A DNA stretch of 64,000 nucleotides from Phytoactinopolyspora limicola (lineage in GTDB: Bacteria > Actinomycetota > Actinomycetes > Jiangellales > Jiangellaceae). The notes below the pieces were generated by a model. The model ran no database searches, was not told the DNA's origin, and saw only the letters and a list, made by a program, of their open reading frames with translations. The DNA lies in contig NZ_JAAOEN010000002.1 of NCBI RefSeq assembly GCF_011320225.1, forward strand, positions 558,584 to 622,583, given 5' to 3'. Both the position numbers and the translations under genes were made by a program. This document shows positions 185-34,210 of this stretch, piece by piece (within the stretch, counting starts at the first letter, position 1; each line of letters starts with the position of its first letter).

Positions 185-214
185 GACGAGCCACCCTATC
201 CGGTGCGCCGTCGC

Positions 215-12289: not shown

Positions 12290-12412
12290 AGATGATGACC
12301 ACAGCGCACGTGGATGCTGGCAGGATTCGCCCCACCGACCAAGCGGTCGCGCACACCCTCACCGCGACCCCGACGAAGTGCTGGCCTATCACCCAGACCC
12401 GGGAGAGCCGCG

Positions 12413-13317: not shown

Positions 13318-13405
13318 GGAACATGACCCGATCGCATCAAATCGATGGCAGGATTTGCCGCACACAATTAATGGCACTGACCCCGATCGGGAGAGAAACA
13401 TCGCC

Positions 13406-14230
13406 ATGACCTTGCTCCATATTTCGCGATCGATCGCCGTAGCCGCCGCTGGCGTCCTACTCCTGTCAGCTTGTGGCGACGACGGTGACGACGCCGACAC
13501 CACCCCACAGAACGGTGCTGACACCGCGGACTACAACCTCGTCGAAGACGGTGTACTCACTGTTTGTTCCGAAGTTCCTTACCCGCCGTTCGAGTTTGAA
13601 GACTCCGACGCACCCAGCGGATACAGCGGCTTCGACATGGACCTCATGCAAGCCATCGCCGACGGAATCGGCCTCGAAATGCGGGTTCAGGCGGTTGGCT
13701 TCGACCCGCTCCAAAGCGGCACGGTGTTCGCCGCGAACCAATGCGACGTCGGCGCCTCGGCGATGACCATCACCGATGAACGCAAGGAGAATCTCGACTT
13801 CTCCGATCCGTACTATGACTCGCTGCAGTCGCTGCTCGCTGCGGCCGACGGTGATATCAACTCGATTGATGACCTCGACGGCCGGGCCGTCGGCGTCCAG
13901 CAGGCGACCACCGGACAGTCCTATGCCGAGGGTAATGCCCCCGAAGGCGCCAGCATCCAGTCTTTCCCCGGCGACCCGGAACTATGGGCCGCTCTCCAGG
14001 CCGGCAACATCGATGCGATCCTGCAGGACTTCCCGGTCAACTACGAGCATCAAGAGGCCGACGACGGCTATGTGATCGTCGAGACCTACGAAACCGACGA
14101 GCAGTACGGTTTCGCGCTGGGCAAGGATGAACGCCCAGCCCTGCTGGCGGCCATCAACGAACAACTGGCCGAACTGCGAGACGACGGCACGTACGACGAG
14201 GTCTACGCCGAATACTTCAGCGTCGACTGA
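13406..14230 (+). CDS. Amino-acid ABC transporter substrate-binding lipoprotein, family 3 (second copy)
   Basis: 274-residue lipoprotein (lipobox LLSAC, Cys23), clearly a tandem paralogue of the preceding gene. Both share [43 protein letters not shown] and the C-terminal DDGTYDE(V/I)Y segment. It has a longer acidic linker after the lipid anchor ([19 protein letters not shown]). ATG 13406 follows GGGAGAG. It sits directly upstream of the permease, so it is the more likely cognate binding protein. The first copy may serve the same transporter with a different ligand preference. Confidence 0.92.
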
Positions 14231-19135: not shown

Positions 19136-19164
19136 TTGACGCTCGGTTGTGTCGCCACTATGTT
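19136..19164 (+). promoter_or_regulatory. Sigma-70-type promoter of the sugar ABC transporter
   Basis: TTGACG (19136-19141) and TATGTT (19159-19164) are separated by exactly 17 bp, matching a vegetative promoter. The LacI-type operator begins two bases after the -10 box. Confidence 0.7.
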
Positions 19165-19166
19165 GG

Positions 19167-19180
19167 TGCAACCGCTTGCA
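19167..19180 (+). promoter_or_regulatory. LacI-family operator, site 1
   Basis: TGCAACCGCTTGCA, a 14-bp palindrome with a central CpG, as bound by LacI/GalR regulators. It covers the expected transcription start, so a bound repressor would block initiation. It has the same core as the sites at 22694, 27731, 27777 and 27798. Confidence 0.8.
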
Positions 19181-19261: not shown

Positions 19262-20530
19262 ATGGGAATCACGCAGGCTTTCCGCGCGGCGGCAGTGATC
19301 GTCGCCACCGCCGTCGCCGTCACCGCATGTGGCGGCGGCGATGACGCCAACCAGGTAGGCACCGATACCAGCTCCTCCGGTGACCAGGAACAGCCATCGG
19401 GCAAGGTGACGTTCTGGTCCTACCCGATCGGCGATGCCAATACCGACCAGTACTGGACGCCTGTGGTGGCTCGTTTCAACGAGCAGTACCCAGATATCGA
19501 CGTAGAAGTTATCGTCCAGCCTTGGGACGGCCGCGAGGAACAGCTGAACACCTCGCTGGCCGGCGGGCTCGCACCCGACGTCGCGTACTTCAACCCGGAC
19601 TTCATACCCAAGTTCGTCGAACAGGGTGTCCTCGAATCAGTCAGCGACGTCATCGCCGATGACGTGGACGACTTCCGCGAGCCAGCAGTGGCCGCGATGA
19701 GCTACAACGACGAGCTCTACGGCGTCCCGCTCCTGATGAGCGTTAGCTCCGTGATCTGCTTCCAGAACGTTCTGGACGAAGCCGGCGTGGACTGCCCGAC
19801 CACCTGGGACGAGGCTCTTGAGATCGCCCCGATCGTGAAGGACGCCGGCTACTACGCCACCCAGTACTCGGGCACGACCAGCCTGAACCACTCCTTCTAT
19901 CCGTTCCTGCTCCAGGCCGGCGGCGAGGTGCTCAACAGCGAGGGGCAGGCGGCGTTCAACGGGCCGGAAGGTGTGGCCGCACTGAGCTTCCTGAAGGAAA
20001 TGGCTGAGAACGACTACCTGCCCCAGCAGAGCCTCACCACCCAGGAAGACTTCGAGCAGACCCCGGCCGGACGCAGCGAGGTAGCGTTCCTCGTCGACGG
20101 CTTCGTCGCCACCGTCAGCCGGTTCGTCGACCCGGAGAACATCGTCGTCAGCCCACCGCTCAGCGGCGCGCAGCCGGCCAACTTCGGCACGGTGGGTGGC
20201 CTGTCGATCTTCAACACGAGCGACAACATCGATGCCGCCAAACTCTGGGTGAAGTTCCTGACCTCACCCGAGGAGATGGAGTCGTTCAACCGGGATGCTC
20301 ACTTCTCCGCCGCCCGGGCGTCGATCACCGGGATCTTCGACGACCCCTTGATGATCGAGCAGGAGAAGTACCTCGACACCGTCTGGTCCGGTGTTGTCCA
20401 CCCGCAGGCCCGCGAGATCATCGACCTGCTGAAGCCACACCTGCAGGCCGCTCTTCTGGGCCGCACCAGTCCGCAAGATGCGCTGGACGCCGCTGCCGCA
20501 GAAGTCGATGGCATGCTCAGCCGCGGATAA
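19262..20530 (+). CDS. Sugar ABC transporter substrate-binding lipoprotein (family 1)
   Basis: 422-residue extracellular solute-binding lipoprotein of the carbohydrate (SBP_bac_1) family. The signal peptide ends in a lipobox (AVTAC, Cys23), followed by an acidic linker. Family features: KVTFWSYPIGDANTDQYWTPVV, VEVIVQPWDGREEQLNTSLAGG and APDVAYFNPDFIPKF. ATG 19262 follows AGAGGGA. It is the first gene of the amino-sugar locus and works with the two permeases downstream. No ATPase is encoded here, as is common when a shared MsiK-type ATPase is used. Confidence 0.93.
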   Translation: MGITQAFRAAAVIVATAVAVTACGGGDDANQVGTDTSSSGDQEQPSGKVTFWSYPIGDANTDQYWTPVVARFNEQYPDIDVEVIVQPWDGREEQLNTSLAGGLAPDVAYFNPDFIPKFVEQGVLESVSDVIADDVDDFREPAVAAMSYNDELYGVPLLMSVSSVICFQNVLDEAGVDCPTTWDEALEIAPIVKDAGYYATQYSGTTSLNHSFYPFLLQAGGEVLNSEGQAAFNGPEGVAALSFLKEMAENDYLPQQSLTTQEDFEQTPAGRSEVAFLVDGFVATVSRFVDPENIVVSPPLSGAQPANFGTVGGLSIFNTSDNIDAAKLWVKFLTSPEEMESFNRDAHFSAARASITGIFDDPLMIEQEKYLDTVWSGVVHPQAREIIDLLKPHLQAALLGRTSPQDALDAAAAEVDGMLSRG

Positions 20531-20828: not shown

Positions 20829-21749
20829 GTGGCAATCGCTGCCCGCAACCGTGCCGGAGCACCCGCGCCGGTGCGTCGGCGCTGGTGGAGGTCCGACAAG
20901 GCGGTGATCGCCTACGTCTTCATCCTCCCGTACGTCATTCTCTTCCTCACCTTCAAGATCGCCCCCGCGATCTTCGGCGTTGGCCTCAGCTTCACCAACT
21001 GGCGCCCGGTCGGCGGCGCGGACTTCATCGGCTTCGACAACTTCACCCGACTCTTCAGCGACCCCATCTTCTGGGGCGCACTTCGGGTGACGCTGGTGTA
21101 CGCGATCATCGCCATACCGATGTCGATCACGGTGTCGCTGTTCATGGCCCTCTTGTGCGACCGGACGTTGCGCGGCATGGGCATCTACCGGTCGATCTTC
21201 TTCCTGCCAGTCGTCACCAGTTCGGTGATCGCCGGCATCATCTGGGTCTGGATCTTCGGCCAGCAAGGGCCGCTCAACTGGCTCACCGGGCTGGTGGGTG
21301 TTGGTCCGCTCGGCTGGCTCCAGAGCGAGATCCTGGTTTTGCCCGCGCTGTCGATGGTCAGTGCGTGGAGCAATTTCGGCTACAACATGCTGATCCTGCT
21401 CGCCGGCATGCTGGCTATCCCCCGCGATTACTACGAGGCAGCCGAGCTCGACGGTGCCAACTGGTTCAAGCGGTTCCGGCACGTCACCATCCCGCTGCTC
21501 AAACCTGCACTGTTCTTCGTCCTCATCCTGGAGATCATCAAGTCGTTCCAGGTGTTCGACACCATCTACGTCATGACCGGTGGCGGTCCGTTCCGGTCGA
21601 GTTACACGTTGACGTACATGATCTACGACCAGGGGTTCGGCTACTTCGACTTCGGCTACGCCAGCGCCGTGGGTGTCGTGCTGCTGGTGATCACCCTGGC
21701 GGTCTCCCTCGTCCAACGGTGGCTGTTCGACAAGGAGAAGAAGAAGTGA
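20829..21749 (+). CDS. Sugar ABC transporter permease (MalF/UgpA type)
   Basis: 306-residue inner-membrane permease with about six transmembrane helices, first at VIAYVFILPYVILFLTF. The coupling EAA motif is YYEAAELDGANWFKRFRHVTIPLL. GTG start 20829 after AGGAGG. The stop overlaps the second permease start (GTGA). Forms the translocation pore with the next protein. Confidence 0.94.
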   Translation: MAIAARNRAGAPAPVRRRWWRSDKAVIAYVFILPYVILFLTFKIAPAIFGVGLSFTNWRPVGGADFIGFDNFTRLFSDPIFWGALRVTLVYAIIAIPMSITVSLFMALLCDRTLRGMGIYRSIFFLPVVTSSVIAGIIWVWIFGQQGPLNWLTGLVGVGPLGWLQSEILVLPALSMVSAWSNFGYNMLILLAGMLAIPRDYYEAAELDGANWFKRFRHVTIPLLKPALFFVLILEIIKSFQVFDTIYVMTGGGPFRSSYTLTYMIYDQGFGYFDFGYASAVGVVLLVITLAVSLVQRWLFDKEKKK

Positions 21750-22627
21750 CCGTCTCGACTGCGCCGCAGACAACGTCGCCCCCGACCACACCCACCGGCA
21801 GCAAACCGCTCGCCAGGGGTCGTCGCCGGCGCCCCGGACTTATGCACCTGCCGCTGATCCTGGCCGCGGTGATCACCGCGTTCCCGTTCTACGCGATGAT
21901 CGTCATCTCGCTCCAGCCGGGCCAGCCGATCGACCTGCCCGGTTCCCTGTTCCCCGCGGTGATCTCCTACGACAGTTACCAAGAGGTGCTCGGCAACTCG
22001 CGGATCTTCCAGTGGGCCTTCAACTCGGCGGTCTACTCGATCGCATCGGTGGTCCTGGTGCTGGTGTTCGCGTCGATGGCTGGTTATGCGTTCGCCAAGA
22101 AGACGTTCTTCGGTCGCGAAGTGATCTTCTGGTCGTTCGTGGCGATGCTGATGGTGCCCTATCACCTGACTCTGATCCCGCAGTTCATCATCGTCTCGGA
22201 GATGGGCGGCCTCAACACCCTGTGGGGTTTGACGGTCCCGACGCTCGCCAACGTGCAGGCGATGTTCCTCATGCGGCAGTTCATCCGCGATATCCCGGAC
22301 GAGCTGATCGAGGCGGCCCGGATCGACGGTGCCGGCGAGTTCCGCATCTACTGGTCGATCATCTTGCCGCAAACCAAACCGATCATGGCGACGCTGGGTA
22401 CGTTCGTGTTCCTCTGGCATTGGAACGACTTCCTCTGGCCGTTGGTCGCGCAGCGCACACCGGACATGTACGTGCTGACCGTGGGTTTGAACAGCATGCA
22501 GCAGCAGGAGACCGTTCTCGCCACCACCATGGCCGGGGCCGTGATCATCTTCGTTCCAACGCTGCTGATCTTCATCTGCCTGCAACGCTTCTTCGTCCGC
22601 GGTGTGGTGATGAGCGGGCTGAAATAG
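21746..22627 (+). CDS. Sugar ABC transporter permease (MalG/UgpE type)
   Basis: 293-residue permease with a proline/threonine-rich cytoplasmic N-terminus, then membrane helices from LPLILAAVITAFPFYAMIV. EAA loop: ELIEAARIDGAGEFRIYWSI. GTG 21746 overlaps the previous gene's stop by four bases. Followed by a strong hairpin, so the transporter transcript may largely end here, with the hydrolase gene restarting from its own operator-containing promoter. Confidence 0.94.
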   Translation: MTVSTAPQTTSPPTTPTGSKPLARGRRRRPGLMHLPLILAAVITAFPFYAMIVISLQPGQPIDLPGSLFPAVISYDSYQEVLGNSRIFQWAFNSAVYSIASVVLVLVFASMAGYAFAKKTFFGREVIFWSFVAMLMVPYHLTLIPQFIIVSEMGGLNTLWGLTVPTLANVQAMFLMRQFIRDIPDELIEAARIDGAGEFRIYWSIILPQTKPIMATLGTFVFLWHWNDFLWPLVAQRTPDMYVLTVGLNSMQQQETVLATTMAGAVIIFVPTLLIFICLQRFFVRGVVMSGLK

Positions 22628-22634
22628 CCGCCTA

Positions 22635-22665
22635 GGGCTACCTGGCCCGGATGGCCAGGTAGCCC
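22635..22665 (+). terminator. Hairpin after the permease genes
   Basis: GGGCTACCTGGCC and GGCCAGGTAGCCC form a perfect 13-bp stem with a 5-nt loop, eight bases after the permease stop. Confidence 0.75.
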
Positions 22666-22693: not shown

Positions 22694-22707
22694 TGCAACC
22701 GCTTGCA
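22694..22707 (+). promoter_or_regulatory. LacI-family operator, site 2
   Basis: TGCAACCGCTTGCA, identical to site 1, placed 13 bp before the hydrolase ATG. Repressor here would block the hydrolase-propeller transcript. Confidence 0.8.
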
Positions 22708-22720
22708 GAAACGGAGCGCG

Positions 22721-23704
22721 ATGATCATGCCCTCGCGACGCCCCTCTCACCGGCCCGGCCGGCCTGTCCCCGTGCTGGCTTCGGGCGGTCCAGCCCGGGC
22801 CGAGACCCGCCGGAAGTGGTGGAGCAATTGGCTGGGCGCCGAGCGGGCTCCGGACGCGGCGTGGCAGCTCGGCCCCATGGCCGCGTGGCGTGACGAGTTC
22901 GACCGAGGCCAGCTCGCTATCACCACCCACGGCACCACCATGGAGGCCGCTCTGCTCCGCCCGGCCGGCTACCCAGGCCACCCCGGCCGGCTGGCCACGG
23001 TCGTGCTGCCGTTCTACGACGTCGCATCGTTGCTCGGCGAGCGGTCGGCGCGCACCCTGGATCGGTCGGACGAGCGGATCCGGGCGCATGCCTATGCCCG
23101 CCACCTGGTCGGCCATGGCGTCGCGGTCCTGGCCGTACCCTGGTGGTTCGAGTACGTCCTACCCGAATCGGCTCCCCTGACGCCGCTAGCCGCGAGGTAC
23201 CAACCAGCGGCCGGCCGGCACCGCCGGACCATCGGCGGAACACCACTCGGGCGCAGCATCGGGGATCTCCTCGTCGCCGTCGATGCCCTGGCCTCGGTGC
23301 CGTGGATCGATCCGGACCGGATCGGCGTCTTTGGCCACTCCCTCGGTGGGAAACTCGCACTCTTCCTCGCCGCACTGGATCCGCGGATCGCCGCCGGGGT
23401 GGTCCACGAGGCCGGCCTGGGCTGGGCCAACTCCAACTGGTCCGATCCGTGGTACCTGGCCGGCGACCCACCGGGCGACCACGATCACGACGAGCTCCTC
23501 GGACTGGTGGCGCCGCGCCCGATCCTCGTCGCCGGTGGGAACGACGCCGACGGCTGGCACAACCGGAACGTCGTCGAACAGGCCAGTTGGTATTGGCCCG
23601 ACACTCATGGCCCCGAGTCGCTCTACCACAACCGCGGGCACACTCCGCCGGACCACGTCCTGCACGCTAGCTACCGCTGGCTGCGGCGGAATCTGGGGAG
23701 GTGA
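22721..23704 (+). CDS. Alpha/beta-hydrolase, acetyl-xylan-esterase/dienelactone-hydrolase-like
   Basis: 327-residue serine hydrolase. The nucleophile elbow is GVFGHSLGGKLALFLAAL; the likely acid is in ILVAGGNDADGWHN and the catalytic His in YHNRGHTPPDHVLH. No signal peptide is obvious, though the first 35 residues are Arg/Pro-rich, so a cytoplasmic role on imported acylated sugars is plausible. ATG 22721 is chosen because GGAG lies five bases upstream; an ATG two codons later is possible. Located between the transporter and the propeller gene and preceded by a repressor site, so part of the regulon. Confidence 0.85.
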   Translation: MIMPSRRPSHRPGRPVPVLASGGPARAETRRKWWSNWLGAERAPDAAWQLGPMAAWRDEFDRGQLAITTHGTTMEAALLRPAGYPGHPGRLATVVLPFYDVASLLGERSARTLDRSDERIRAHAYARHLVGHGVAVLAVPWWFEYVLPESAPLTPLAARYQPAAGRHRRTIGGTPLGRSIGDLLVAVDALASVPWIDPDRIGVFGHSLGGKLALFLAALDPRIAAGVVHEAGLGWANSNWSDPWYLAGDPPGDHDHDELLGLVAPRPILVAGGNDADGWHNRNVVEQASWYWPDTHGPESLYHNRGHTPPDHVLHASYRWLRRNLGR

Positions 23705-23755: not shown

Positions 23756-26326
23756 ATGAGTAGCACCACTTTTCCACGACCATCCATCCGGACCAGACTT
23801 GGCTATACCCTCGGCGCCAGCATGCTGGCCACCGCCGTCCTCGTCGGCACCGGTGCCGGCGCCAACTCGTCAACCGTCGACCCCGCGGCGACCACGGGTA
23901 CCGTCGTCGGTCCGGTGAACGGCGGCTTCGAAGAACCCGTCGACGACGGCGCCATCCCCGGCTGGACCCACACCCATGGCACCGCCAACCCCGACGCGTT
24001 CTCCGTCGTCGATACGCGGGCCGCCGAAGGCGACTACAGCCTGCTGCTGCACAACCCCAGCTCGGAGATCAGCGCCGGGCTCCGCAGCGACCGATTCGAC
24101 ATCACCGGCGGGCATACCTACCGGGTCAGCGCCCAGGTCTACATCGAGGAATACACCAGCCCGAGCGCCTCCTCCCTCTACTTCTACTTCTATGACGAGT
24201 CCGGCCAGCAGCTCGAACAGCACACCGTGTCGATCGGGCGGCTCCCGCGGGACAGCTGGCAGCCGGTGACTCTCTACGCCGACGCCCCGGCCGAGGCCAC
24301 GAGCGCGGCGGTGTTGTTGTACTCGAACATCGCCAACGTCGCCACCTACTACGCCGACGACGTCCAGGTGACCGATCGGGGCGAAGCAGCAGTGGTCGAG
24401 GATCTCGGCGTGGCTATGTACACACCGAACGTCCGACTCGGCGCCACCGACACATTGCCGGACGGCACCCCGGTCGCGTACATGTTCTCCGACGGCAACC
24501 CGGTCAGCTTCAACGTCGTCGATATCCGCGACGGTCAGCTGCTGGACACCATCGACATGCCGCCCTATACGGTGGCCAGCTCGATCGTGGTCGACGACGA
24601 TCACAGCGTCTACTTCAGCGTCCGAGCTCCCAACGACGGCACCCTGTGGCGCTACGACCCCGTGGAGCAGGAACTCGAGACTCTCGCCAGCCGCCTCGTC
24701 GGGGAGCAGATGCTGCGCAGCCTGCTGCTCGACGGCGACACCCTCTATGGCACCACATACCCGGGCGCCAAGGTGTACTCCTACAACACGGTCAGCGGTG
24801 ACGTCCACGACTACGGCCCAGTGTTCACCGACGGCGCCTACGCGTGGGGTTTCGATCAGGTGGACGGCGAGCTCTGGGTCGGCACCGGCGCGGTCGGCCG
24901 GCTGTACAGCGTCGATCCGGGCAGCGGCGACATCACCGAGATCGACCTGCCGGATGGGGTGGAGCCGGACTTCGTCAACCGCATCATCCGCCACGGTGAC
25001 CTAGTGTTCGTGGCCTACTCACCGGGCAGCCCGGAGAACGTCGCGGTCTACGACCTCACCGCGGGCGAGTGGTGCTGTACGCAGACGCTGCGGTCCACCG
25101 TCGGTACCTGGTCGAAGGCGTCATACGACGGCCAGTTCTTCTACGTGTCCGGCGACACCGTGTACGGCTACGACCTCGATGCCCGGGCCACCGTCTCGAT
25201 CGGCTGGGAATCCAGCGCGCTCGCCGCGGAGGTCGAGGGAACCATCAGCCTGGAGCTGGTCGACCTGGGCCTGCCGGAGTTCCCCGGCACCAGCCTGGTC
25301 GGGCTACGTGGCGACGGCGCACTCTGGCGCTACAACCTAGCCACCGGCGACGGCGACGTGGTGAGCGGCGACATCCACGGCGCGCCGGCCACCGTCCATT
25401 CGATTGGCCACGGAGCCGATGGCAACGTCTACGTCGGTGCCTATCTCAGCTCGGGTGTCATGGCCCGCGTCGACCGCTCCACCGGTGAGCTCGAGCAGCT
25501 CTCCGGGCCGGGGCAGGCCGACAGCATGATCGCGCATCGGAACCATACGGTGGTGGGTGTCTATCCGAGCGCCTCGTTCTACGCCGGACAACCCGCTCAG
25601 GACTGGGAATGGGGCGAGAACCCGTCCCACCTGTTCACCGTGGGCCGGGGTGCACCGCACGGTCAGGATCGGCCGCTCACCATGGTGTCGGCGGGCCCAG
25701 TGGTCGCCGCGGGCACCGTGCCGAACTACGGTGAGCTGGGTGGTGCCCTAGTGCTGTTCGATCCGAAACGTGGCGGCGCTGGATACGAGGTGCACCGCAA
25801 CGTCGTCCACGATCAGAGTGTGGTGGCGCTGGCGTATCGCAACGGTCTGGTCTATGGCGGCACCTCGATCCACGGCGGGCTGTCCAGCGACTCCACCCAG
25901 GACGAGGCAGAGCTGTTCATCTGGGACGTCAAGGCCGGCGAGGTGGTCTGGAGCGACGTTGTCGTCCCCGGGGCCACCATCATGCATGAGCTGACGTTCA
26001 CTCCGAACGGTGACCTCTGGGGCCTGACCGAGACCGGGACGCTGTTCCAGTTCGACCGGCATACCCGCGAGGTGGTGAACACCGTGGAGACGGGTATCAC
26101 CAACTCCAACGTGTGGGGTCGGCTGAGTGAGCTGTTCTACCGCGAGTCCGATGGCTACCTCTATGGAAACACCGGTGGCCGGCTGTTCCGTCTCGACCCG
26201 GACAGCCTCGAGCTAGAGATCCTCGTGTCCAGTGGGGTCCGTGGCGCCGCCGTCGACCGTGACGACACTATCTACTTCACCGACGCGACCAACGTGTTCC
26301 GATACGTGCCGAGCGGCGAGGAGTAG
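23756..26326 (+). CDS. Secreted protein with N-terminal carbohydrate-binding-like domain and PQQ/kelch-type beta-propeller
   Basis: 856 residues. A Sec signal peptide (LGYTLGASMLATAVLVGTG) is followed by a jelly-roll domain (about residues 50-205) that reads like a CBM4/9-type module: NGGFEEPVDDGAIPGW, SDRFDITGGHTYRVSAQVY, YYADDVQV. The rest, from about 220 to the end, is a long series of propeller blades with recurring 'xLWRYDPxxxxLE', 'LYSVDPGSG', 'LFRLDPDSLELE' and 'LFQFDRHTREV' units. No catalytic signature of a known lyase or hydrolase family was recognised. Propeller folds are used by several polysaccharide lyases, so a new glycan-cleaving or glycan-binding protein is plausible; that is inference. 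The gene starts 51 bp after the hydrolase, within the repressor-controlled transcript. Confidence 0.8.
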   Translation: MSSTTFPRPSIRTRLGYTLGASMLATAVLVGTGAGANSSTVDPAATTGTVVGPVNGGFEEPVDDGAIPGWTHTHGTANPDAFSVVDTRAAEGDYSLLLHNPSSEISAGLRSDRFDITGGHTYRVSAQVYIEEYTSPSASSLYFYFYDESGQQLEQHTVSIGRLPRDSWQPVTLYADAPAEATSAAVLLYSNIANVATYYADDVQVTDRGEAAVVEDLGVAMYTPNVRLGATDTLPDGTPVAYMFSDGNPVSFNVVDIRDGQLLDTIDMPPYTVASSIVVDDDHSVYFSVRAPNDGTLWRYDPVEQELETLASRLVGEQMLRSLLLDGDTLYGTTYPGAKVYSYNTVSGDVHDYGPVFTDGAYAWGFDQVDGELWVGTGAVGRLYSVDPGSGDITEIDLPDGVEPDFVNRIIRHGDLVFVAYSPGSPENVAVYDLTAGEWCCTQTLRSTVGTWSKASYDGQFFYVSGDTVYGYDLDARATVSIGWESSALAAEVEGTISLELVDLGLPEFPGTSLVGLRGDGALWRYNLATGDGDVVSGDIHGAPATVHSIGHGADGNVYVGAYLSSGVMARVDRSTGELEQLSGPGQADSMIAHRNHTVVGVYPSASFYAGQPAQDWEWGENPSHLFTVGRGAPHGQDRPLTMVSAGPVVAAGTVPNYGELGGALVLFDPKRGGAGYEVHRNVVHDQSVVALAYRNGLVYGGTSIHGGLSSDSTQDEAELFIWDVKAGEVVWSDVVVPGATIMHELTFTPNGDLWGLTETGTLFQFDRHTREVVNTVETGITNSNVWGRLSELFYRESDGYLYGNTGGRLFRLDPDSLELEILVSSGVRGAAVDRDDTIYFTDATNVFRYVPSGEE

Positions 26327-26335
26327 GGCTCGACC

Positions 26336-26384
26336 CTGGTGTGTCGCGCCGGAGATCTCAGGGATTTCCGGCGCGACACACCAG
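26336..26384. terminator. Strong hairpin after the propeller gene
   Basis: Perfect 18-bp stem CTGGTGTGTCGCGCCGGA / TCCGGCGCGACACACCAG with a 13-nt loop, nine bases after the propeller stop. Placed between convergent genes, so it can end transcripts from both sides. Confidence 0.8.
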
Positions 26385-26398
26385 CCGATGTCCGCCGA

Positions 26399-26445
26399 GA
26401 TCAGGTGTCGTTGGTGGCGCCACTCCTCACCAACAACACCTGATC
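26399..26445. terminator. Second hairpin, GATCAGGTGT arms
   Basis: The 18-bp arms (26399-26416 and 26428-26445) contain GATCAGGTGT and its complement and pair with one mismatch. It may end the leftward AGE-epimerase transcript. The core GATCAGGTG also occurs in the 186-bp inverted repeat at 8852-9787, so it could be part of a dispersed element. Confidence 0.6.
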
Positions 26446-26485: not shown

Positions 26486-27715
26486 TCATCCGGGCACCGA
26501 ATCGTCCAGCTCGACGATCTGCATGAGGTTCCGGGCGATGTGAAACGGGTCTTTGACCGGCAGGGCTACTACCTCGTCGAGTGGTAGACCGGCCCGGTCC
26601 CGGATCTGGATCCACTCCTCCCCGTCGGCGCCAGCCGGGAACGTCGACAAGGTGTACGCCCAGATCCGGTCCGCCCACGAGGCGGCTTCGGCATCGCCGT
26701 AGCGCCGGGCCGCCAGGGCGGTGGTGTAGGCCGCCTCGGTGTGTACCCACCACAACTTGGTGCTCCACGTCCGGCGGACCAACGTCTCGTACGGCGTGTC
26801 TCCGCCCCACCCGCGTGGTTCGACCGGTCCGGATCGATCGGCGTACCGAACCAGCCCACCATAGTCGGGGTCCCAGGCCGCGGCGGCCAGGGCTCCCACA
26901 CTGGCCAGCAAGGCGGGAACCGGCGCCCGGTCGTCGAGGAGCTCACAGGTCTCGAGCGCCACCCAGACACCTTCCAGGGCGTGGCCGGGTACTCGGTGTC
27001 GAGCGAGGAGTGAGCCGTCGTCGTTGGTGTCGGGGATCATTTCGCGGAAGGTGCCGTCCGGCTGTCGGTGGTCGAGCATGGTGTCGCGGGCCTGTCGGAG
27101 CCGGTCCATCTCACCCGGATCGGCCACGCCGAGGGCCTGCTTGGCGCGCACCCATTCCAGGAGTGTGTTGAGGAGGATCATCCGCGGCCCGAAGGCGGTG
27201 AAACCCGCTGGCACAGCGTACGGCGGGGTCGCCGCGGTGCCTGCGGCGATGCTCTCGGCGGCGGTCGACAGTACGGGCTCGACCGGATCCAACCAGTCGG
27301 GCGTTCCGGTCCGACGGGCCAACTCGGCCAGGCCCATGACCACGAAACAGTCGGCGTAGACGCTGTGGTCCTCGCCCGACGGCCCGGCCGTTGGTGAACC
27401 TTTCCGGTCGAGGACGAAATGGCAACGTCCGTCCGGCCGGATGGCGTGGTCGAGGAGGAACTCGGCACCGCGAACGGCGTACCGCGTCAACTCGGCCGCG
27501 TCCAGCTCGAGCCGGCCGGCCGCGGCCAGCCGCGCCGCCCGGGCGAGAAGCCAGACGAATCTGCCTTGTGACCAGGTGAACTTGTCGGTGGAAACCAACG
27601 TACGGCCGCGGTTGTCGAAGCAGGTCAGGAAGCCGCCCGCGGTGTGGTCGACGCCGTGCTGGAGCCAGAACGGGAGGACGACGCCTTCCAGCTGAGCACG
27701 AGCGGTGGCGTACAC
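26486..27715 (-). CDS. AGE-family epimerase/isomerase (N-acylglucosamine 2-epimerase-like)
   Basis: 409-residue (alpha/alpha)6-barrel enzyme of the N-acylglucosamine 2-epimerase superfamily. Members interconvert N-acetylmannosamine and N-acetylglucosamine, epimerise cellobiose or isomerise aldoses. Conserved pieces: WSQGRFVWLLARAAR, the His-bearing HRVPGHALEGVWVALE, and STKLWWVHTEAAYTTAL. Start GTG 27715 follows GGGAGG; reading further upstream would run through the operators and is unlikely. Divergent from nagB and sharing its operator cluster. The exact substrate cannot be set by homology alone, but amino-sugar genes around it favour an N-acyl hexosamine. Confidence 0.88.
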   Translation of the reverse strand: MYATARAQLEGVVLPFWLQHGVDHTAGGFLTCFDNRGRTLVSTDKFTWSQGRFVWLLARAARLAAAGRLELDAAELTRYAVRGAEFLLDHAIRPDGRCHFVLDRKGSPTAGPSGEDHSVYADCFVVMGLAELARRTGTPDWLDPVEPVLSTAAESIAAGTAATPPYAVPAGFTAFGPRMILLNTLLEWVRAKQALGVADPGEMDRLRQARDTMLDHRQPDGTFREMIPDTNDDGSLLARHRVPGHALEGVWVALETCELLDDRAPVPALLASVGALAAAAWDPDYGGLVRYADRSGPVEPRGWGGDTPYETLVRRTWSTKLWWVHTEAAYTTALAARRYGDAEAASWADRIWAYTLSTFPAGADGEEWIQIRDRAGLPLDEVVALPVKDPFHIARNLMQIVELDDSVPG

Positions 27716-27730
27716 GTTCCCTCCCAGGGA

Positions 27731-27811
27731 TGCAACCGGTTGCGAACAGCGATCGTCCCATCGTTGACCGGGCCAATGCAACCGGTTACAGTGTGATTGC
27801 AACCGCTTGCA
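27731..27811. promoter_or_regulatory. Divergent AGE/nagB control region with three LacI-type operators
   Basis: Sites TGCAACCGGTTGCG (27731-27744), TGCAACCGGTTACA (27777-27790) and TGCAACCGCTTGCA (27798-27811). A rightward promoter TTGACC (27764-27769), 17-bp spacer, TACAGT (27787-27792) is overlapped by the second site, and the third covers the start of transcription of nagB. The first site lies just upstream of the ribosome site of the leftward epimerase gene. Three spaced sites would allow looping by a tetramer or cooperative repression of both directions. Confidence 0.8.
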
Positions 27812-27829
27812 ATCTAGAGAGGTCCGTGC

Positions 27830-28606
27830 ATGACCACACATCCCGAGTCAGTCGAGGGCGTATCGCTGCGGATCGGCCAGGACGCCACGGATACCGGCCA
27901 GGCCGCCGCATACGACGCGTCCAAAGCCATCAGGGCGGCCATCGATCACCGAGGCAACGCGCGCGTGATCTTCGCCTCGGCGCCGTCGCAGGAGAGCATG
28001 CTCGCCGCGCTGGTGGCCGATCCCGATATCGACTGGTCCCGAGTGCATGCCTTTCATATGGACGAGTACATCGGCCTATCAGCGGCCGACCCGCGCGGAT
28101 TCGGGCAGTGGATCCAAACCCGCCTACCCGCGGCCACACTCGCCAGCCTGGAACGGATCCGACCCGACGCCGCGGGCACAGCCGAGGCACGTCGCTACGC
28201 CGCACTGCTTCAATCCGGCCCGATCGACCTGACCTGCATGGGTATTGGTGTCAACGGGCACATCGCGTTCAACGAACCCGGCGACACCCGATTCGACGAT
28301 CCAGATCACGTCCGGGTCATCACTCTCGATCCGGTCTCCCGCCAGCAGCAGGTCGACGACGGACTGTTCGAGCGGCTCGACGACGTACCTACCACCGCGG
28401 TGACCCTCACGGTGCCGGCCCTCCTCGCCGCCTCCTGCGTCGTGGTGACCGTGCTTGGCAAGGCGAAGGCGCCGGCCGTCGCCACCGCCCTAACCGGACC
28501 CATCGATCCGGCCTGCCCGGCCAGCGCCATCCGAACCCATACCGACGCCACCATCCACGTAGACACTCAAGCCGCCGCCGAGCTACCTCGACCGGAAACT
28601 ATTTAG
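27830..28606 (+). CDS. nagB: Glucosamine-6-phosphate deaminase
   Basis: 258-residue NagB (glucosamine-6-phosphate to fructose-6-phosphate plus ammonia). Key segments: phosphate/substrate loop FASAPSQESMLAAL, catalytic HMDEYIGL, LTCMGIGVNGHIAFNEPG with the active-site His and Glu, and VTVLGKAKAPAVATAL. It is typical in length and complete. ATG 27830 with GAGAGG upstream. First gene of the rightward operon, directly behind the triple operator. It feeds the locus product into glycolysis. Confidence 0.94.
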   Translation: MTTHPESVEGVSLRIGQDATDTGQAAAYDASKAIRAAIDHRGNARVIFASAPSQESMLAALVADPDIDWSRVHAFHMDEYIGLSAADPRGFGQWIQTRLPAATLASLERIRPDAAGTAEARRYAALLQSGPIDLTCMGIGVNGHIAFNEPGDTRFDDPDHVRVITLDPVSRQQQVDDGLFERLDDVPTTAVTLTVPALLAASCVVVTVLGKAKAPAVATALTGPIDPACPASAIRTHTDATIHVDTQAAAELPRPETI

Positions 28607-28608
28607 CC

Positions 28609-28634
28609 ACGTCCTTAATTTGAATTCAGGACGT
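28609..28634. promoter_or_regulatory. 26-bp palindrome between nagB and the epimerase-like gene
   Basis: ACGTCCT (28609-28615) and AGGACGT (28628-28634) flank an AT-rich centre (TAATTTGAATTC). It starts two bases after the nagB stop. A weak promoter-like pair TTGAAT (28620-28625) and TAGTAT (28642-28647) with a 16-bp spacer overlaps its right half, so this may be the operator of an internal promoter. Unlike the LacI sites in sequence. Confidence 0.45.
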
Positions 28635-28742
28635 CTTAAAATAGTATTCGGTCATGCCGGTCTAGTGGGTCATCGATCCTCGATGGCCCGTCCACCCGGC
28701 ACAGCAGCAGGCAACCGCCCCTGGGCAGACGGAAGGTGCACG

Positions 28743-29759
28743 GTGCGAACAGTCGAAGAGCTCGAGGAACGCCTCTCCCGACCACGACCAGCCCTCGTCG
28801 ACGAGCTGCGTAAGCTCGACGGCGACATCGTGGTGCTCGGCGCAGCCGGCAAGATGGGGCCGACACTGGTCCGGCTGGCCACCCGGGCCATCGCCGAGGC
28901 AGGTACCGGTGCCCGGGTCATCGCCGTCTCGCGCTTCTCTCAACCTGGTTCGGCTGAAGCGATGCGGGCCACCGGCGCCGAGGTGCACCCGGCCGATCTC
29001 ACCGACGACGCCGCGATCAGCGCCCTACCGGACGCCGCCAACGTCGTGTTCCTCGTGGGTGCCAAATTCGGCAGTGCCGGAAACGAAGCGGCTACCTGGG
29101 CCACGAACACGTTCCTGCCCGGCCGCGTCGCTCAGCGCTACGCCGGCGCCCGCATGGTCGCGCTCTCCACCGGCAACGTCTACCCATTAACCCCCACCGG
29201 CAGCGGCGGGCCCACCGAGGAACACCCCGTCGGACCGGTGGGTGAATACGCGATGTCCTGTCTGGGCCGCGAACGTATCCTCAGCCACTTCGCGCAGGCC
29301 AACAACAGTCCGACCGCACTCATCCGGCTGAACTACGCGGTCGAGCCGCGGTACGGCGTGCTCGTCGACATCGGGCTAGCCGTCCGCTCCGGCCAGCCGG
29401 TCGATGTGACCACCGGGTACGTCAACGTCGTGTGGCAGGGCTACGCGAACGAGGTCATCCTGCGCAGCCTACTGCGGGCTGACGTCCCGCCCGTCGTCCT
29501 CAACCTCACGGGTCCGGAGACCATCTCGGTTCGTCAGGTGGCCCGGCGGTTCGCACACGAGTTCGGCGCCGACGCCGAGTTCACCGGCACCGAAGCCGAC
29601 ACCGCTCTATTGTCCAACGCCAGCCGCTGCCACGGCCTCTTCGGCTACCCGGACGTGCCGCTCGAAGAGCTCGTCGAGCTCACCGCGGAGTGGCTAACGA
29701 ACGATCTCCCACTACTAGGCAAACCCACCAAATTCGACGTCAGGGATGGCAAGTTCTGA
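28743..29759 (+). CDS. NAD-dependent epimerase/dehydratase-family protein (extended SDR), atypical active site
   Basis: 338 residues. The Rossmann turn is unusual but clear: DIVVLGAAGKMGPTLVRLA, followed by VIAVSRFS, the aspartate of HPADLTDD and the SDR Ser strand VALSTGNVYPL. The expected YxxxK pair reads YAMSC, so the catalytic Lys appears to be replaced by Cys. The protein may therefore bind NAD and sugar without normal SDR chemistry, or use another base. Start GTG 28743 after GGAAGG; an upstream ATG at 28683 would add 20 residues. Its stop shares one base with the next start, so the two products are probably made in equal amounts. Confidence 0.75.
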   Translation: MRTVEELEERLSRPRPALVDELRKLDGDIVVLGAAGKMGPTLVRLATRAIAEAGTGARVIAVSRFSQPGSAEAMRATGAEVHPADLTDDAAISALPDAANVVFLVGAKFGSAGNEAATWATNTFLPGRVAQRYAGARMVALSTGNVYPLTPTGSGGPTEEHPVGPVGEYAMSCLGRERILSHFAQANNSPTALIRLNYAVEPRYGVLVDIGLAVRSGQPVDVTTGYVNVVWQGYANEVILRSLLRADVPPVVLNLTGPETISVRQVARRFAHEFGADAEFTGTEADTALLSNASRCHGLFGYPDVPLEELVELTAEWLTNDLPLLGKPTKFDVRDGKF

Positions 29760-30814
29760 TGGCCGGCACCACACTCACCTCGACGATCGGACCGGACTCC
29801 ATGGACGCATTCCGCTCCGGGACGGTGATCCCGGCCCATCCCCTGGCCCTAGATGCCTCCCGCCGCCTCGACGAGCGCCGCCAGCGTGCGCTCACCCGTT
29901 ACTACCTGGAGTCCGGCGCTGGTGGTGTAGCCGTAGCAGTCCACACCACCCAGTTCGCCATCCACGAACCCGACCGCGGCCTCCTCCAACCGGTGTTGGA
30001 GCTGGCATCGACGACGGCGGCCGAGTACGCCGAGAACGCACCGATCCTGGTCGCGGGCGTCAGCGGCTCGACAGCCCAAGCGGTCGCCGAGGCCGAACTC
30101 GCCGCGTCCCTCGGCTACCACCTCATCCTGCTCGCGCCGTATGGGGCTACCGAGCTCAGCGACGAAGAACTGCTCGAGCGGGCCCGGGCGGTCGGTGAAG
30201 TACTGCCCGTCATCGGCTTCTATCTCCAACCGGCGGTCGGAGGCAGAGTCCTGCCCCGGCCGTTCTGGCGACAGCTGGCCGACATCCCCAGCGTGGTGGG
30301 CATCAAGGTAGCCCCGTTCGATCGCTACGCCACCCTGGACGTCGTGCTCGGCGTGGCCGACTCCGACCGCGGCGCCGACGTCACCTTCTACACCGGCAAC
30401 GACGACCACATCGTTGGGGACCTACTGGCGCGATACCCGACGGGCACCGAATTCGTCGGTGGGCTCCTGGGCCAGTGGGCGGTCTGGGCACACACCGCGG
30501 TTCAGCTGCTCGAGCGGACCCGCCGGGCCAAAGAGGGCGACGACGCGGCCCTACGCGAAGTCGCTGCTATAGACATCGAACTGACCGACGCGAACGCCGC
30601 CATCTTCGACGTCCGGAATAATTTCCACGGTTGCATCCCCGGCATCCATGAGGTGCTTCGCAGGCAAGGACTGCTGGATGGCATCTGGTGCCTCGACGAG
30701 AAGGAGGTGCTCGGACCCGGCCAGCTTGCCGAGATCGACCGGATCTGGGCCGCATACCCACACCTGCGCGACGACCACTTCGTCGCCAGCCATCTCGACC
30801 GCTGGCTGCGCTGA
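29759..30814 (+). CDS. Dihydrodipicolinate synthase-family aldolase/lyase
   Basis: 351-residue (beta/alpha)8 class I aldolase of the DapA/NanA superfamily. The Schiff-base Lys is in SVVGIKVAPFDRYA; the upstream Tyr in VIGFYLQPAVGG fits the conserved catalytic Tyr. It has a long N-terminus with GGVAVAVHTTQFAIHEPDR and is longer than DapA or NanA (about 300), so it belongs to an unassigned subgroup. ATG shares one base with the epimerase TGA (TGATG). The neighbours suggest cleavage of a keto-sugar acid or related intermediate; the substrate is unknown. Confidence 0.82.
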   Translation: MAGTTLTSTIGPDSMDAFRSGTVIPAHPLALDASRRLDERRQRALTRYYLESGAGGVAVAVHTTQFAIHEPDRGLLQPVLELASTTAAEYAENAPILVAGVSGSTAQAVAEAELAASLGYHLILLAPYGATELSDEELLERARAVGEVLPVIGFYLQPAVGGRVLPRPFWRQLADIPSVVGIKVAPFDRYATLDVVLGVADSDRGADVTFYTGNDDHIVGDLLARYPTGTEFVGGLLGQWAVWAHTAVQLLERTRRAKEGDDAALREVAAIDIELTDANAAIFDVRNNFHGCIPGIHEVLRRQGLLDGIWCLDEKEVLGPGQLAEIDRIWAAYPHLRDDHFVASHLDRWLR

Positions 30815-30884: not shown

Positions 30885-32102
30885 ATGGAGATCGAGGGTC
30901 GGCTCGCGGATGGCACGATGGCCCGCGTCCGCCTCGCCGGTGAGCTGATCACCGCCGTGACACCGGCGCCGGGCACCAGCACCGGGTCTGCTTCCGGCAC
31001 CGGTCCGGACGGACCTCCGTGGCTGCTACCCGGCCTGATCGATCTCCAGGTCAACGGGTACCGCGGGATCGACGTCAATGCCGTCGACGCCGATCCCGAC
31101 ACCGTCCACGCACTCGTGAGAGCCCAGTGGGAGCAGGGTGTCACTACAATGCTGCCGACCGTCATCACCGCACCCGCGGCACGGATGCTCGCCGCCGTCC
31201 GGGCCATCGCCGCGGCTCGCGCGGGCGACCCCCACACTCGGCACAGCGTCCCCGGCATCCATCTCGAAGGGCCGTACCTGTCCGCCGACGACGGTCCGCG
31301 CGGGGCACACGACCATGCCCACATCCGCCCGCCCGACATCGACGAACTCGGCCGCTGGCGCGACGCCGCCGGCGACGCCCTGCTGCTGGTCACCCTCGCC
31401 CCCGAGACACCCGGCGCCATCAACTTCATCCGTGCCGCTACCACGATGGGTGTGGTGGTCGCTATCGGGCACACCGCGGCCAGCCCCGACCAGATACACG
31501 CGGCGGCCGCTGCCGGTGCGCGGCTGAGCACCCACCTCGGCAACGGGGCGCATCCGGTACTGCCACGGCACCCCAACTACATTTGGGCGCAGCTGGCGGA
31601 CACCCGGTTGGCCGCCAGCTTCGTCGCCGACGGTCACCATCTGCCGGTCGACACCTTCCTCGCCATGCTCCGGGCCAAAGGAGCAGCGTCGTCGGTTCTG
31701 GTCAGCGACTCGGTTACCCTCGCCGGCTATCCAGCCGGCGAGTACTCCACCCCGGTCGGGAGCAGCGTGACCCTGCACCCGGACGGACGTCTGACTCTGA
31801 CCGGGTCGCCCCTGCTGGCCGGCTCAACTGCGTCGCAGGCGGACTGCCTAGCCTGGGCGGTTGGCGCCGCCGGGCTGGACGTCGCCACCGCCGCCACACT
31901 GGTATCGGGCAACCCGGCCCGGCTCATCGGGCTCCCCCAGCGCGGCACCCTCGAACCCGGCCGCACCGCCGACCTCGTCCTGCTCTCCGCCGACCTGCGG
32001 CACGTCCTCGCCACCGTCGTGCGCGGCGAGCTGGTATATGAGGCGGCGACCAACACCCAGGCACCCGTCCCACCACCATCCACCGGAGGGAACCACACAT
32101 GA
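30885..32102 (+). CDS. nagA: N-acetylglucosamine-6-phosphate deacetylase
   Basis: 405-residue amidohydrolase-fold enzyme that removes acetate from N-acetylglucosamine-6-phosphate, giving the NagB substrate. The metal ligand Glu is in GIHLEGPYLS (about residue 128), metal His residues in VAIGHTAAS and STHLGNGAHP, substrate loop VADGHHLP, and catalytic Asp in LVSDSVTLAG. A standard NagA has HLFNAM where this reads HLGNGAH, so the substrate pocket may differ. ATG 30885 after AGAGGAG. Its stop overlaps the next gene's start (ATGA). Confidence 0.88.
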   Translation: MEIEGRLADGTMARVRLAGELITAVTPAPGTSTGSASGTGPDGPPWLLPGLIDLQVNGYRGIDVNAVDADPDTVHALVRAQWEQGVTTMLPTVITAPAARMLAAVRAIAAARAGDPHTRHSVPGIHLEGPYLSADDGPRGAHDHAHIRPPDIDELGRWRDAAGDALLLVTLAPETPGAINFIRAATTMGVVVAIGHTAASPDQIHAAAAAGARLSTHLGNGAHPVLPRHPNYIWAQLADTRLAASFVADGHHLPVDTFLAMLRAKGAASSVLVSDSVTLAGYPAGEYSTPVGSSVTLHPDGRLTLTGSPLLAGSTASQADCLAWAVGAAGLDVATAATLVSGNPARLIGLPQRGTLEPGRTADLVLLSADLRHVLATVVRGELVYEAATNTQAPVPPPSTGGNHT

Positions 32103-33139
32103 CAACCGATCGCATCCGCGTCGGCATCATCGGGCTCGGCCGCAGCGGCTGGAACATCCATGCCGCCGGTCTCGCCGAACTCGACCGTTTCGCGGTGGTC
32201 GCCGCGGCCGATCCGGTCGCGGAGCGGCGAGCCGAAGCCGAGGAACGGTTCGGCTGCACCACCTACACCAAGCCGGACGAGCTGATCGGCGCGGCCGACG
32301 TCGAGCTGGTGGTGGTCGCCACCCCATCCCACACCCACGTCCCGCTGGCGATCGCCGCCCTCGAGGCCGGCAAACACGTCGTCGTCGAGAAACCTCTCGC
32401 CCAGAGCGCCGCCGAGGTTGACCTCATGGTCGCCGCCGCCGACAAGGCTGGCCGAGTACTCACCTGCTTTCACAACCGCCGGTTCGATCCGGAACTGATC
32501 GCGATCCGGGAGGCCATCGACTCCGGCCGGCTCGGCGAGCTGTTCCTCATCCGGCGGACCCTGCACCGGTTCGCCCGTCGGGCCGACTGGCAGACTCTGC
32601 GCAAACTCGGCGGCGGCGAACTCCCCAACACCGCCTCGCATCTGCTCGACCAGGTCCTCACCTTGATGGACGACCACCCGATCGAACTCTTCGCCGACCT
32701 GCGCCGCACCGTGTCGGCCGGCGACGCGGAGGACCATGTCCACCTCGTCCTGAAACCCTCGACGGGTCCCACCGTCGAGGTCGAGTCGACGTCAGCGGTG
32801 GCGATCGCCCAACCCGACTGGCTCATCGCCGGCACCACGGGAACGCTGGTCAGCCAGGCCAACCAGCTGACCCTGCGGTGGTTCGACCCAGCCACGCTGC
32901 CAGCGCTGGAGGCCGACGATGGGATAGCCGCCGGCCGCAAGTACGGCACCGGCGAGCAGATCGACTGGCAGGAGGAGACCATCGAACTCGCGGCACCTGG
33001 CCCCGAACGGACCCTGCGCTACTACGAGCGGCTCGCGGCCACCTTGCGCGACGGTGCGGACCTGTACGTCACCCCCGCCAGTGTGCGTCGCCAGATCGAA
33101 CTGATGGAACGCGCTCGGACACAGGCCGGGTTCCACTGA
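32099..33139 (+). CDS. Gfo/Idh/MocA-family NAD(P)-dependent oxidoreductase
   Basis: 346-residue sugar/inositol dehydrogenase-type protein. N-terminal Rossmann fold (RVGIIGLGRSGWNIHAAGL) and the family hallmark HVVVEKPLAQSAAEVDLM, where the Lys participates in catalysis. In the C-terminal part, LGGGELPNTASHLLDQVLTLM carries the conserved His. It overlaps nagA by four bases. Probably oxidises a sugar hydroxyl to a keto group in the locus pathway; cofactor and substrate cannot be read from sequence. Confidence 0.88.
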   Translation: MTTDRIRVGIIGLGRSGWNIHAAGLAELDRFAVVAAADPVAERRAEAEERFGCTTYTKPDELIGAADVELVVVATPSHTHVPLAIAALEAGKHVVVEKPLAQSAAEVDLMVAAADKAGRVLTCFHNRRFDPELIAIREAIDSGRLGELFLIRRTLHRFARRADWQTLRKLGGGELPNTASHLLDQVLTLMDDHPIELFADLRRTVSAGDAEDHVHLVLKPSTGPTVEVESTSAVAIAQPDWLIAGTTGTLVSQANQLTLRWFDPATLPALEADDGIAAGRKYGTGEQIDWQEETIELAAPGPERTLRYYERLAATLRDGADLYVTPASVRRQIELMERARTQAGFH

Positions 33140-33220
33140 TCACGGCGGGCCCCGAACCCGTATGGTATGCGGACAAGGCGTGATGCCATGGCAGGTAGGT
33201 CAGGGGCTGGGAGGTCGAGG

Positions 33221-34210
33221 GTGCAACGGGTCACCATCTACTCCGTCGCCCAGGCATGCGGTGTTTCTTCGTCGACGGTGTCCCGCGCCTTCACCCGGCC
33301 CGATCTCGTCAACGACGAGGTCCGCCAGCGGGTCCTCGACACCGCCGCCCAGATGGGGTACCGCCCGAACCGGTCGGCCCGCGCCACCGCCACCGGTCGC
33401 ACGGGCATGGTCGGCCTGGTGGTACCGGACATCACCAACCCGTTCCTGCCGCCGCTGGTCCGGGCCGTCCAGCGGGCCGCCGGCCTCGCCGAATGGTCGG
33501 TCCTGCTGGTCGACGCCGAAGGCAACGCCGCCGCTGAAGCCCGGCTGATCAACCAGCTTCAAGGACAGGTGGACGGGCTCATCCTCGCCTCGCCACGGGC
33601 CCGTCCAGACGCGCTTCGAGAGGCCATCCGCGACCTTCCGGCAGTGCTGATCAACCGTGAGGTGTCCGGCCTGCCGTCCGTCGTCTGTGATACCGCGCAG
33701 GCGTTGTCCAAGATCGGCGACCAACTGCTTCAACTGGGCCATCGTGAGGTCGCGTTACTAGGTGGCCCGGTGGACTCGTGGGCGGCCGGCCAACGCGCCG
33801 CCGCGGTTCGGAACTGGGCGGTTGGCGCCGGAGTTGTCCTCGACGAACTCGGGCCGTTCGACGCCTCGTTCGAGGGTGGTCGGGATGCCGCCGACCACAT
33901 GCTGCGCACCGGCGCTACGGCGGCTTTCGCCTTCGACGACGTCATGGCCTGTGGCGTGCTCGCCGAGTTGGCTGCCCGCGATGTCGCGGTGCCGGGTCAA
34001 CGCAGCGTCGTCGGCTGCGACGACGTCCTGATGGCCCGGATGGTCACCCCGAGCCTGAGCACCGTCACCGCACCCACCGACCAACTCGGTGGGGTAGCCG
34101 TAGACCTCCTCCACCGCGCCATCGACACCCCGTCCGCACGGGCTGAGGCGCGCACCCTGCCGGGTCGGCCGGTCCTGCGCGGATCAACCGGTCCGGCGCC
34201 GTCCCGGTAA
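33221..34210 (+). CDS. LacI-family transcriptional regulator of the amino-sugar locus
   Basis: 329 residues: an N-terminal helix-turn-helix (TIYSVAQACGVSSSTVSRAFTR), the hinge, and a periplasmic-binding-protein-like effector domain beginning GMVGLVVPDITNPF. GTG 33221 is chosen because GGGAGG lies six bases upstream; earlier starts at 33167 or 33188 would only add an Arg/Gly tail. At the hinge position of the operator-intercalating Leu56 of LacI this protein has Thr56 (ARAT). Last gene of the nagB operon and the best candidate for binding the five TGCAACCGSTTGCA sites, giving self-controlled repression relieved by a pathway sugar. Confidence 0.9.
   Translation: MQRVTIYSVAQACGVSSSTVSRAFTRPDLVNDEVRQRVLDTAAQMGYRPNRSARATATGRTGMVGLVVPDITNPFLPPLVRAVQRAAGLAEWSVLLVDAEGNAAAEARLINQLQGQVDGLILASPRARPDALREAIRDLPAVLINREVSGLPSVVCDTAQALSKIGDQLLQLGHREVALLGGPVDSWAAGQRAAAVRNWAVGAGVVLDELGPFDASFEGGRDAADHMLRTGATAAFAFDDVMACGVLAELAARDVAVPGQRSVVGCDDVLMARMVTPSLSTVTAPTDQLGGVAVDLLHRAIDTPSARAEARTLPGRPVLRGSTGPAPSR

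Follow-up and report, generated by a model that had tools for sequence, protein, structure and literature searches.

Several described systems lie close to the protein considered here. Propeller enzymes usually carry their sites on the top face, and the GH74 xyloglucanases are secreted proteins with two seven-bladed propellers, often together with a CBM, in which catalysis uses two aspartates. The ectodomain of the BT4663-type hybrid two-component sensor (PDB entry 4a2l), a double-propeller protein whose PDB title refers to heparin/heparan-sulphate sensing, presents tandem propellers in a glycan context, and jelly-roll folds are found in the CBM4, CBM16 and CBM22 modules (2y6j, 2zex and 2w5f). 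The seven-bladed PL42 enzyme FoRham1, an L-rhamnose-α-1,4-D-glucuronate lyase, is reported to have a Tyr/Arg site for an acidic sugar on one propeller face, the equivalent of the top face being termed the anterior side there, and to depend on His85 and His105 (PMC8377490).

The protein compared with these systems, P0001, is encoded in the soil actinobacterium Phytoactinopolyspora limicola. In the window, i.e. the whole stretch of 64 000 nucleotides that was analysed, its open reading frame is bounded exactly by 23756 and 26326 on the + strand, with 856 codons, an ATG start and the ribosome-binding-type sequence AGAAAGG a short distance 5' of this ATG. The following features were assigned to the gene and its product.

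23756..26326, + strand: P0001, predicted secreted CBM4-like plus double β-propeller protein, 856 aa
23756..23863, + strand: putative Sec signal peptide, residues 1–36, read from the translation
23888..24391, + strand: CBM4/16/22-type jelly roll, residues about 45–212, from fold and profile matches
24392..26311, + strand: 14 predicted propeller blades, residues about 213–852, from the model and the YncE alignment
25514..25522, + strand: Gln587 and Asp589 codons (Q-x-[DE]), start of blade 9
25562..25564, + strand: Tyr603 codon, B–C loop of blade 9 (153/153)
25664..25672, + strand: Gln637 and Arg639 codons (Q-x-R), start of blade 10 (152/153 and 153/153)

From its translation, P0001 looks like an export-type protein with a Sec signal peptide; residues 1–41 have a pLDDT below 50 in the structure model, and the C-terminal end lies about six residues past the final strand of the last blade. 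The initial annotation had presented a secreted 856-residue protein combining a CBM4/9-like jelly roll with a long propeller, and the reading of the signal peptide, the match to 2y6j and the 14 blades all agree with this. It had also recognised no catalytic motif, and the lack of a known catalytic family is borne out by the Pfam, NCBIfam and PDB sequence searches: all Pfam matches (Tachylectin, DUF6923 and CBM_4_9) are below cut-off, nothing scored above cut-off in NCBIfam, and phmmer against PDB sequences returned nothing at E ≤ 1. The candidate new family proposed at that time is thus upheld insofar as P0001 falls under neither a curated model nor a solved sequence. A search of a viral structure library returned just generic propellers and tail proteins.

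The N-terminal domain, modelled separately (residues 40–214; pLDDT 78), has a CBM4-type jelly-roll fold according to both Foldseek, in which CBM4-2 (2y6j) was the best match (E = 5e-9), and VIA-align, in which 153 residues were aligned with CBM4-2 (Z = 15.0, 2.7 Å); CBM16 and CBM22 folds were also matched. The likeness to these modules extends over nearly the whole domain, whereas the identity is about 20% and P0001 stays below the Pfam cut-off, with 16.7 bits for the whole protein and 20.2 bits for the domain against CBM4/9 (PF02018; cut-off 25.9). Its paralogue P0003 scores 29.6 bits against the same cut-off, and the CBM_4_9 profile matched six of six aligned N-domains at E ≤ 0.1 (best 1.1e-7).

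The propeller region was modelled on the 78-row alignment A3 (pLDDT 88.6, pTM 0.87), and 14 four-stranded blades, twice the usual seven, were counted in the predicted secondary structure. In VIA-align, 284 residues spanning 212..852 fit the seven-bladed YncE (Z = 30.6, 2.4 Å); because the seven-bladed fold fits so closely, a single 14-bladed ring is disfavoured, and the simplest reading of the model is that of two seven-bladed propellers, one of which would hold both chain ends and the other of which would be inserted. The top structural matches of P0001 are YncE and WD40 propellers (Z about 29–31), and the whole model gave mainly eukaryotic tandem WD40 proteins in Foldseek (TM about 0.3), both similarities being of fold only. 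The best profile match among PDB sequences is 4a2l (E = 1.2e-14), a match to the repeats. P0001 has tandem propellers and a glycan context in common with this ectodomain, whereas the topology differs, the TM is low with an rmsd of 24 Å over the whole chain, a jelly roll is added, and the membrane span and kinase domains that follow the propellers in such sensors are absent. If the 14 blades of P0001 form two rings, its double propeller would also resemble that of GH74; no GH74 match appeared in the searches with P0001. Neither GH74 nor a CAZy propeller lyase, PL42 and GH145 included, is among the structural matches listed by Foldseek and VIA-align, an absence that excludes nothing, and PL22 oligogalacturonate lyase and PL11 are not among the six Pfam matches of P0001 at E ≤ 1, the library possibly lacking models for them.

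Conserved positions were then read from the alignments. Alignment A1 was built with 39 of the 40 sequences that remained after redundancy was removed from 117 long matches; A3 comprises the query and 77 of 83 filtered relatives drawn from 96 matching ORFs, and omits six relatives that are fragmentary, divergent or very long. In A3, Gln587, Tyr603 and Arg639 are found in 78/78 rows, and Gln637 and Asp/Glu589 in 77/78 each. To obtain an extended set, 173 sequences were added, including the divergent copies initially omitted; in the 153 that cover the site, many of which overlap A3 or derive from the same or closely related strains, Tyr603 and Arg639 are present throughout, Gln637 in 152, Gln587 in 149 and Asp/Glu589 in 144, and all five residues are retained in 143. 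This near-invariance holds at about 30% mean identity. By strand register, the five residues are located in D–A or B–C loops or at the starts of inner strands of the adjacent blades 9 and 10, which would place them on one face of a propeller, where they likely form a functional pocket; that this pocket is single and catalytic, as well as its substrate, we infer.

The proposed site would resemble that of FoRham1 in having Tyr and Arg on one propeller face for an acidic sugar, whereas FoRham1 has one propeller rather than two and its His85 and His105 have no conserved counterpart in P0001 as judged by column conservation. No histidine is conserved in the 78 rows of A3, the best His column reaching 35/78, and P0001 gave no sequence match to FoRham1. 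Asp/Glu589 is the only near-invariant top-face carboxylate and is itself missing in 9/153 sequences, apparently in contrast to the catalytic aspartate pair of GH74; the remaining conserved Asp residues sit at strand ends of the propeller repeat. Without a fixed carboxylate pair, a classical glycosidase is argued against, and a two-carboxylate glycosidase was lowered among the candidates.

The genes and signals surrounding P0001 in the window are as follows.

19167..19180, no strand: LacI-type operator before the importer genes, with a promoter-like site (19136–19164) directly upstream
19262..20530, + strand: sugar ABC transporter substrate-binding protein
20829..22627, + strand: two sugar ABC transporter permeases (20829–21749 and 21746–22627)
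22635..22665, + strand: hairpin gggctacctggcc/ggccaggtagccc between the importer and hydrolase genes, read from the sequence
22694..22707, no strand: LacI-type operator before the hydrolase–propeller pair
22721..23704, + strand: α/β-hydrolase, glucuronoyl/acetylxylan-esterase-like (ATG 22721 preferred over TTG 22703)
26336..26384, + strand: 23-bp hairpin after the propeller gene, terminator-like, without a T-run
26486..27841, − strand: N-acylglucosamine 2-epimerase (AGE) family protein
27731..27811, no strand: three operator copies (27731, 27777 and 27798) between the divergent AGE and NagB-like genes
27830..28606, + strand: glucosamine-6-phosphate deaminase/isomerase-like protein (NagB-like)
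28620..29759, + strand: NAD-dependent epimerase/dehydratase family protein, associated in both phyla with the propeller family
29756..30814, + strand: dihydrodipicolinate-synthase-family (DHDPS) aldolase/dehydratase, likewise linked to the propeller family
30885..32102, + strand: N-acetylglucosamine-6-phosphate deacetylase-like amidohydrolase (NagA)
32099..33139, + strand: Gfo/Idh/MocA oxidoreductase
33167..34210, + strand: LacI-family regulator, presumed to read the operator

Since an operator (22694) lies between the hairpin and the start of the hydrolase gene, the hydrolase and propeller genes look like a transcription unit of their own. A single operon with the importer was rejected, the hairpin and this second operator lying in between, and the importer genes and the hydrolase–propeller pair belong to one regulon and probably not to one transcript. 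The initial annotation had placed the propeller gene under a repressor-controlled promoter together with a sugar hydrolase and the importer. Of this, the repressor control shared with the importer is retained in view of the LacI-type operators, whereas a single transcript is not, given the separate operators and the hairpin at 22635–22665; the partner is an α/β-hydrolase of the esterase type, not a glycoside hydrolase. The hairpin following the propeller gene has a fold z of −7.9, with none of 200 shuffles equally stable, and just past it a second stable hairpin (26399–26445; z −5.5) lies between the convergent propeller and AGE genes. In a stretch such as the one that holds 19136–19164, chance alone would give about one promoter-like element. 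Elsewhere in the window, 12314–13207 and 13355–14230 encode two tandem, very similar, lipoprotein-like binding proteins of the amino-acid type, followed by one permease and one ATPase; this tandem looks like a duplication.

The exact operator pattern TGCAANCGNTTGCA occurs at nine places in the 6.59 Mb genome and the reversed-pattern control at none. Three of the nine sites are in the window cluster, one precedes each of two propeller paralogues on C39, one precedes the CBM4/9-propeller paralogue P0003 on C10, two precede Gfo/Idh genes on C1, and one, on C23, lies before a run of D-2-hydroxyacid dehydrogenase, enolase-type and aldehyde-dehydrogenase genes. The operator thus covers four of the five propeller paralogues, the hydrolase gene intervening in the case of P0001, and the fifth (C1:242809) has no operator nearby. 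Operator-like palindromes in the window cluster number five (19167, 22694, 27731, 27777 and 27798); over both strands of the window there are 12 matches, including a weak site at 44407, compared with an average of 0.89 and at most 4 in shuffled sequences. Identical operators are found at family loci of other genera, e.g. L088, L091 and L092. On C10 (L147:1622-7660), the operator upstream of P0003 is accompanied downstream by a LacI gene and then by a glucuronate isomerase gene, which scores above its NCBIfam cut-off, and a benzaldehyde-dehydrogenase-like gene, below its model cut-off, is present at one regulon site. Beside the operator sites, where part of the genes were scanned with Pfam, no glycoside hydrolase or lyase was identified, and the only secreted products recognised are the propeller proteins and the binding protein.

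The family is found in 20 of the 22 genomes of the order with up to 13 copies each, the counts in the order and phylum being lower bounds, and five copies are present in the genome of P0001, where the first listing had four paralogues and a profile search added the fifth. In a thin sample of the phylum it occurs in at least one of 296 genomes, that one being the window's own, a figure that underestimates the spread because scoring was limited to about three candidates in each genome. A contig scan gave 54 loci, in Georgenia, Ruania, Nonomuraea, Micromonospora, Jiangella, Kribbella and others as well as Bacilli, and plasmid records with the family come from Streptomyces, Paenibacillus, Mesobacillus and the archaeon Natribaculum. 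In the A3 tree, the rows from Bacilli group together (support 0.62), separately from those of actinobacteria, and gene clusters often contain paralogues of different clades. The relative at L046:12372-17111 is a fusion protein that also contains a repeat module and a complete tannase-like domain, DUF6351 (Pfam E = 5e-243), and L033:17191-19824, L034:1-2544 and P0003 carry a C-terminal repeat module of about 110 residues (GPLxVxxGxTC...) that is absent from P0001.

In both phyla, the propeller genes adjoin DHDPS-family, NAD-epimerase, ABC importer and Gfo/Idh genes. Of the 26 DHDPS copies in the order, 21 have a propeller gene no more than 20 kb away, compared with 0.62 expected under independent placement, the related genomes not representing independent events, and the DHDPS–propeller pair is seen again on replicons of Paenibacillus, Mesobacillus and Streptomyces. 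In the P0001 clade, AGE and/or NagB-like genes are found repeatedly (the window, L041, L091 and L092). Among 106 scanned neighbours of relatives (of 157 nearest neighbours, with script gene calls that are in part wrong in high-GC DNA), the 25 most frequent of 106 matched Pfam families hold no GH or PL. AGE, NagA, NagB and the DHDPS-family protein together resemble a sialic-acid route, which was lowered to a mere possibility because the best score of the DHDPS-family protein, weak and far below cut-off, is to 5-dehydro-4-deoxyglucarate dehydratase, and because relatives outside the P0001 clade retain DHDPS without AGE. Two genomes of the order have a DUF4127 gene next to propeller arrays (L037:1623-3122 and L040:17949-19451, the latter by a similar N-terminus only), and L129:12297-13529, which like similar genes at 12 of the 54 loci adjoins propeller genes, encodes a conserved protein of about 410 residues with a weak C-terminal HTH match, possibly an uncharacterised regulator.

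Tentatively, we favour the reading that P0001 is a secreted enzyme that cleaves an acidic, amino-sugar-containing glycan by a Tyr/Arg-based site over one in which it captures glycan without catalysis. P0001 would be the secreted, polymer-facing part of the LacI-controlled system for such a glycan, which would be held by the CBM4-like jelly roll and enter a top-face pocket of one propeller formed by Tyr603, Gln637 and Arg639 together with Gln587 and, usually, Asp/Glu589. Arg639 would bind or neutralise the carboxylate of a uronate-like sugar, assisted by the glutamines, and Tyr603 would carry out the chemistry, either as base and acid in a β-elimination or as the nucleophile of a tyrosine-type hydrolase site; the oligosaccharides released would then be taken up by the ABC importer and processed inside the cell by the Gfo/Idh, epimerase, esterase, NagA/NagB and aldolase-type enzymes. 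Counting for cleavage are the near-invariant polar residues, the regulon, the absence of an identified GH or lyase at its sites, the DHDPS linkage, the glucuronate isomerase after a paralogue and the tannase-like fusion of one relative; counting against it are the lack of a match to any known catalytic family, the carboxylate missing in nine sequences and the lack of GH88/GH105. An endo-lyase route normally needs GH88 or GH105, and the substrate of glucuronate isomerase is a saturated uronate. Neither GH88 nor GH105 was found in the genome of P0001, the control search being positive in 3 of 14 genomes, and this result together with the glucuronate isomerase at the C10 site argues against an endo-lyase giving unsaturated oligosaccharides, which was lowered as a candidate. 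The comparison with oligogalacturonate, ulvan and rhamnogalacturonan propeller lyases suggested by the initial annotation likewise found no sequence support, no conserved His and no GH88/GH105.

It is equally conceivable that the paralogues, with several in a cluster, serve in binding. In that case, jelly roll and pocket would bind glycan or oligosaccharides and pass them to the importer, and an unlinked enzyme would do the cutting, a possibility that we regard as doubtful but substantial. The nearest architecture by profile, the BT4663 double-propeller sensor, senses glycans rather than cutting them, the number of copies per cluster and the expansion of the family would fit a set of binding specificities, and the typical glycosidase dyad is not conserved; however, the regulon sites yielded no further enzyme recognised as cutting a polymer, and the fixed Tyr, Arg and Gln across divergent paralogues exceed what changing specificities would need. 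An unlikely alternative is that the substrate of P0001 is not a polymer but an ester, a lactone or an aryl-linked glycoside, such as plant phenolic glycosides, which it would prepare for breakdown of the 3-keto/Gfo-Idh type inside the cell. The linked Gfo/Idh, 2-hydroxyacid dehydrogenase, enolase-type, zinc alcohol dehydrogenase and amidohydrolase genes, the benzaldehyde-dehydrogenase-like gene and the DUF6351 fusion would suit such a substrate, whereas the domain of carbohydrate-binding type points to a polymer or a surface as the target and the amino-sugar genes AGE, NagA and NagB are in the same gene cluster. A role as a sensor, protein–protein scaffold or other non-carbohydrate partner, as in many YncE/WD40-type propellers, is less probable still, the YncE/WD40 matches that speak for it reflecting the fold only and the co-regulation with sugar uptake and catabolism, the CBM4-like domain and the fixed polar site speaking against it.

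The propeller, the CBM-like module and the LacI regulon are of known kinds, whereas the combination, the family and the fixed site appear uncharacterised, and literature searches of partial coverage returned no paper recognisable as describing the family. P0001 is probably a novel type of protein that either cuts or captures glycans. Returning to glycan cleavage, it is possible, with some doubt, that a new glycan-cleaving family of Actinomycetota and Bacilli is represented, with a double propeller and a Q-x-[DE]/Tyr/Q-x-Arg site, acting as the sole extracellular enzyme of the LacI regulon on acidic, amino-sugar-containing glycans. This family of secreted proteins is widely distributed and much duplicated, and has neither a Pfam or NCBIfam model above cut-off nor a PDB sequence relative. 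If catalytic, it would constitute a new family of carbohydrate-active enzymes whose tyrosine/arginine site lies on a double propeller, and the nine-site regulon would offer a direct handle on the substrate, since a product of the glycan should act as the LacI inducer. If its role is confined to binding, P0001 would serve to capture glycan for uptake in Gram-positive bacteria, as a protein of a kind presently annotated as 'hypothetical' or 'WD40/PQQ-like'.
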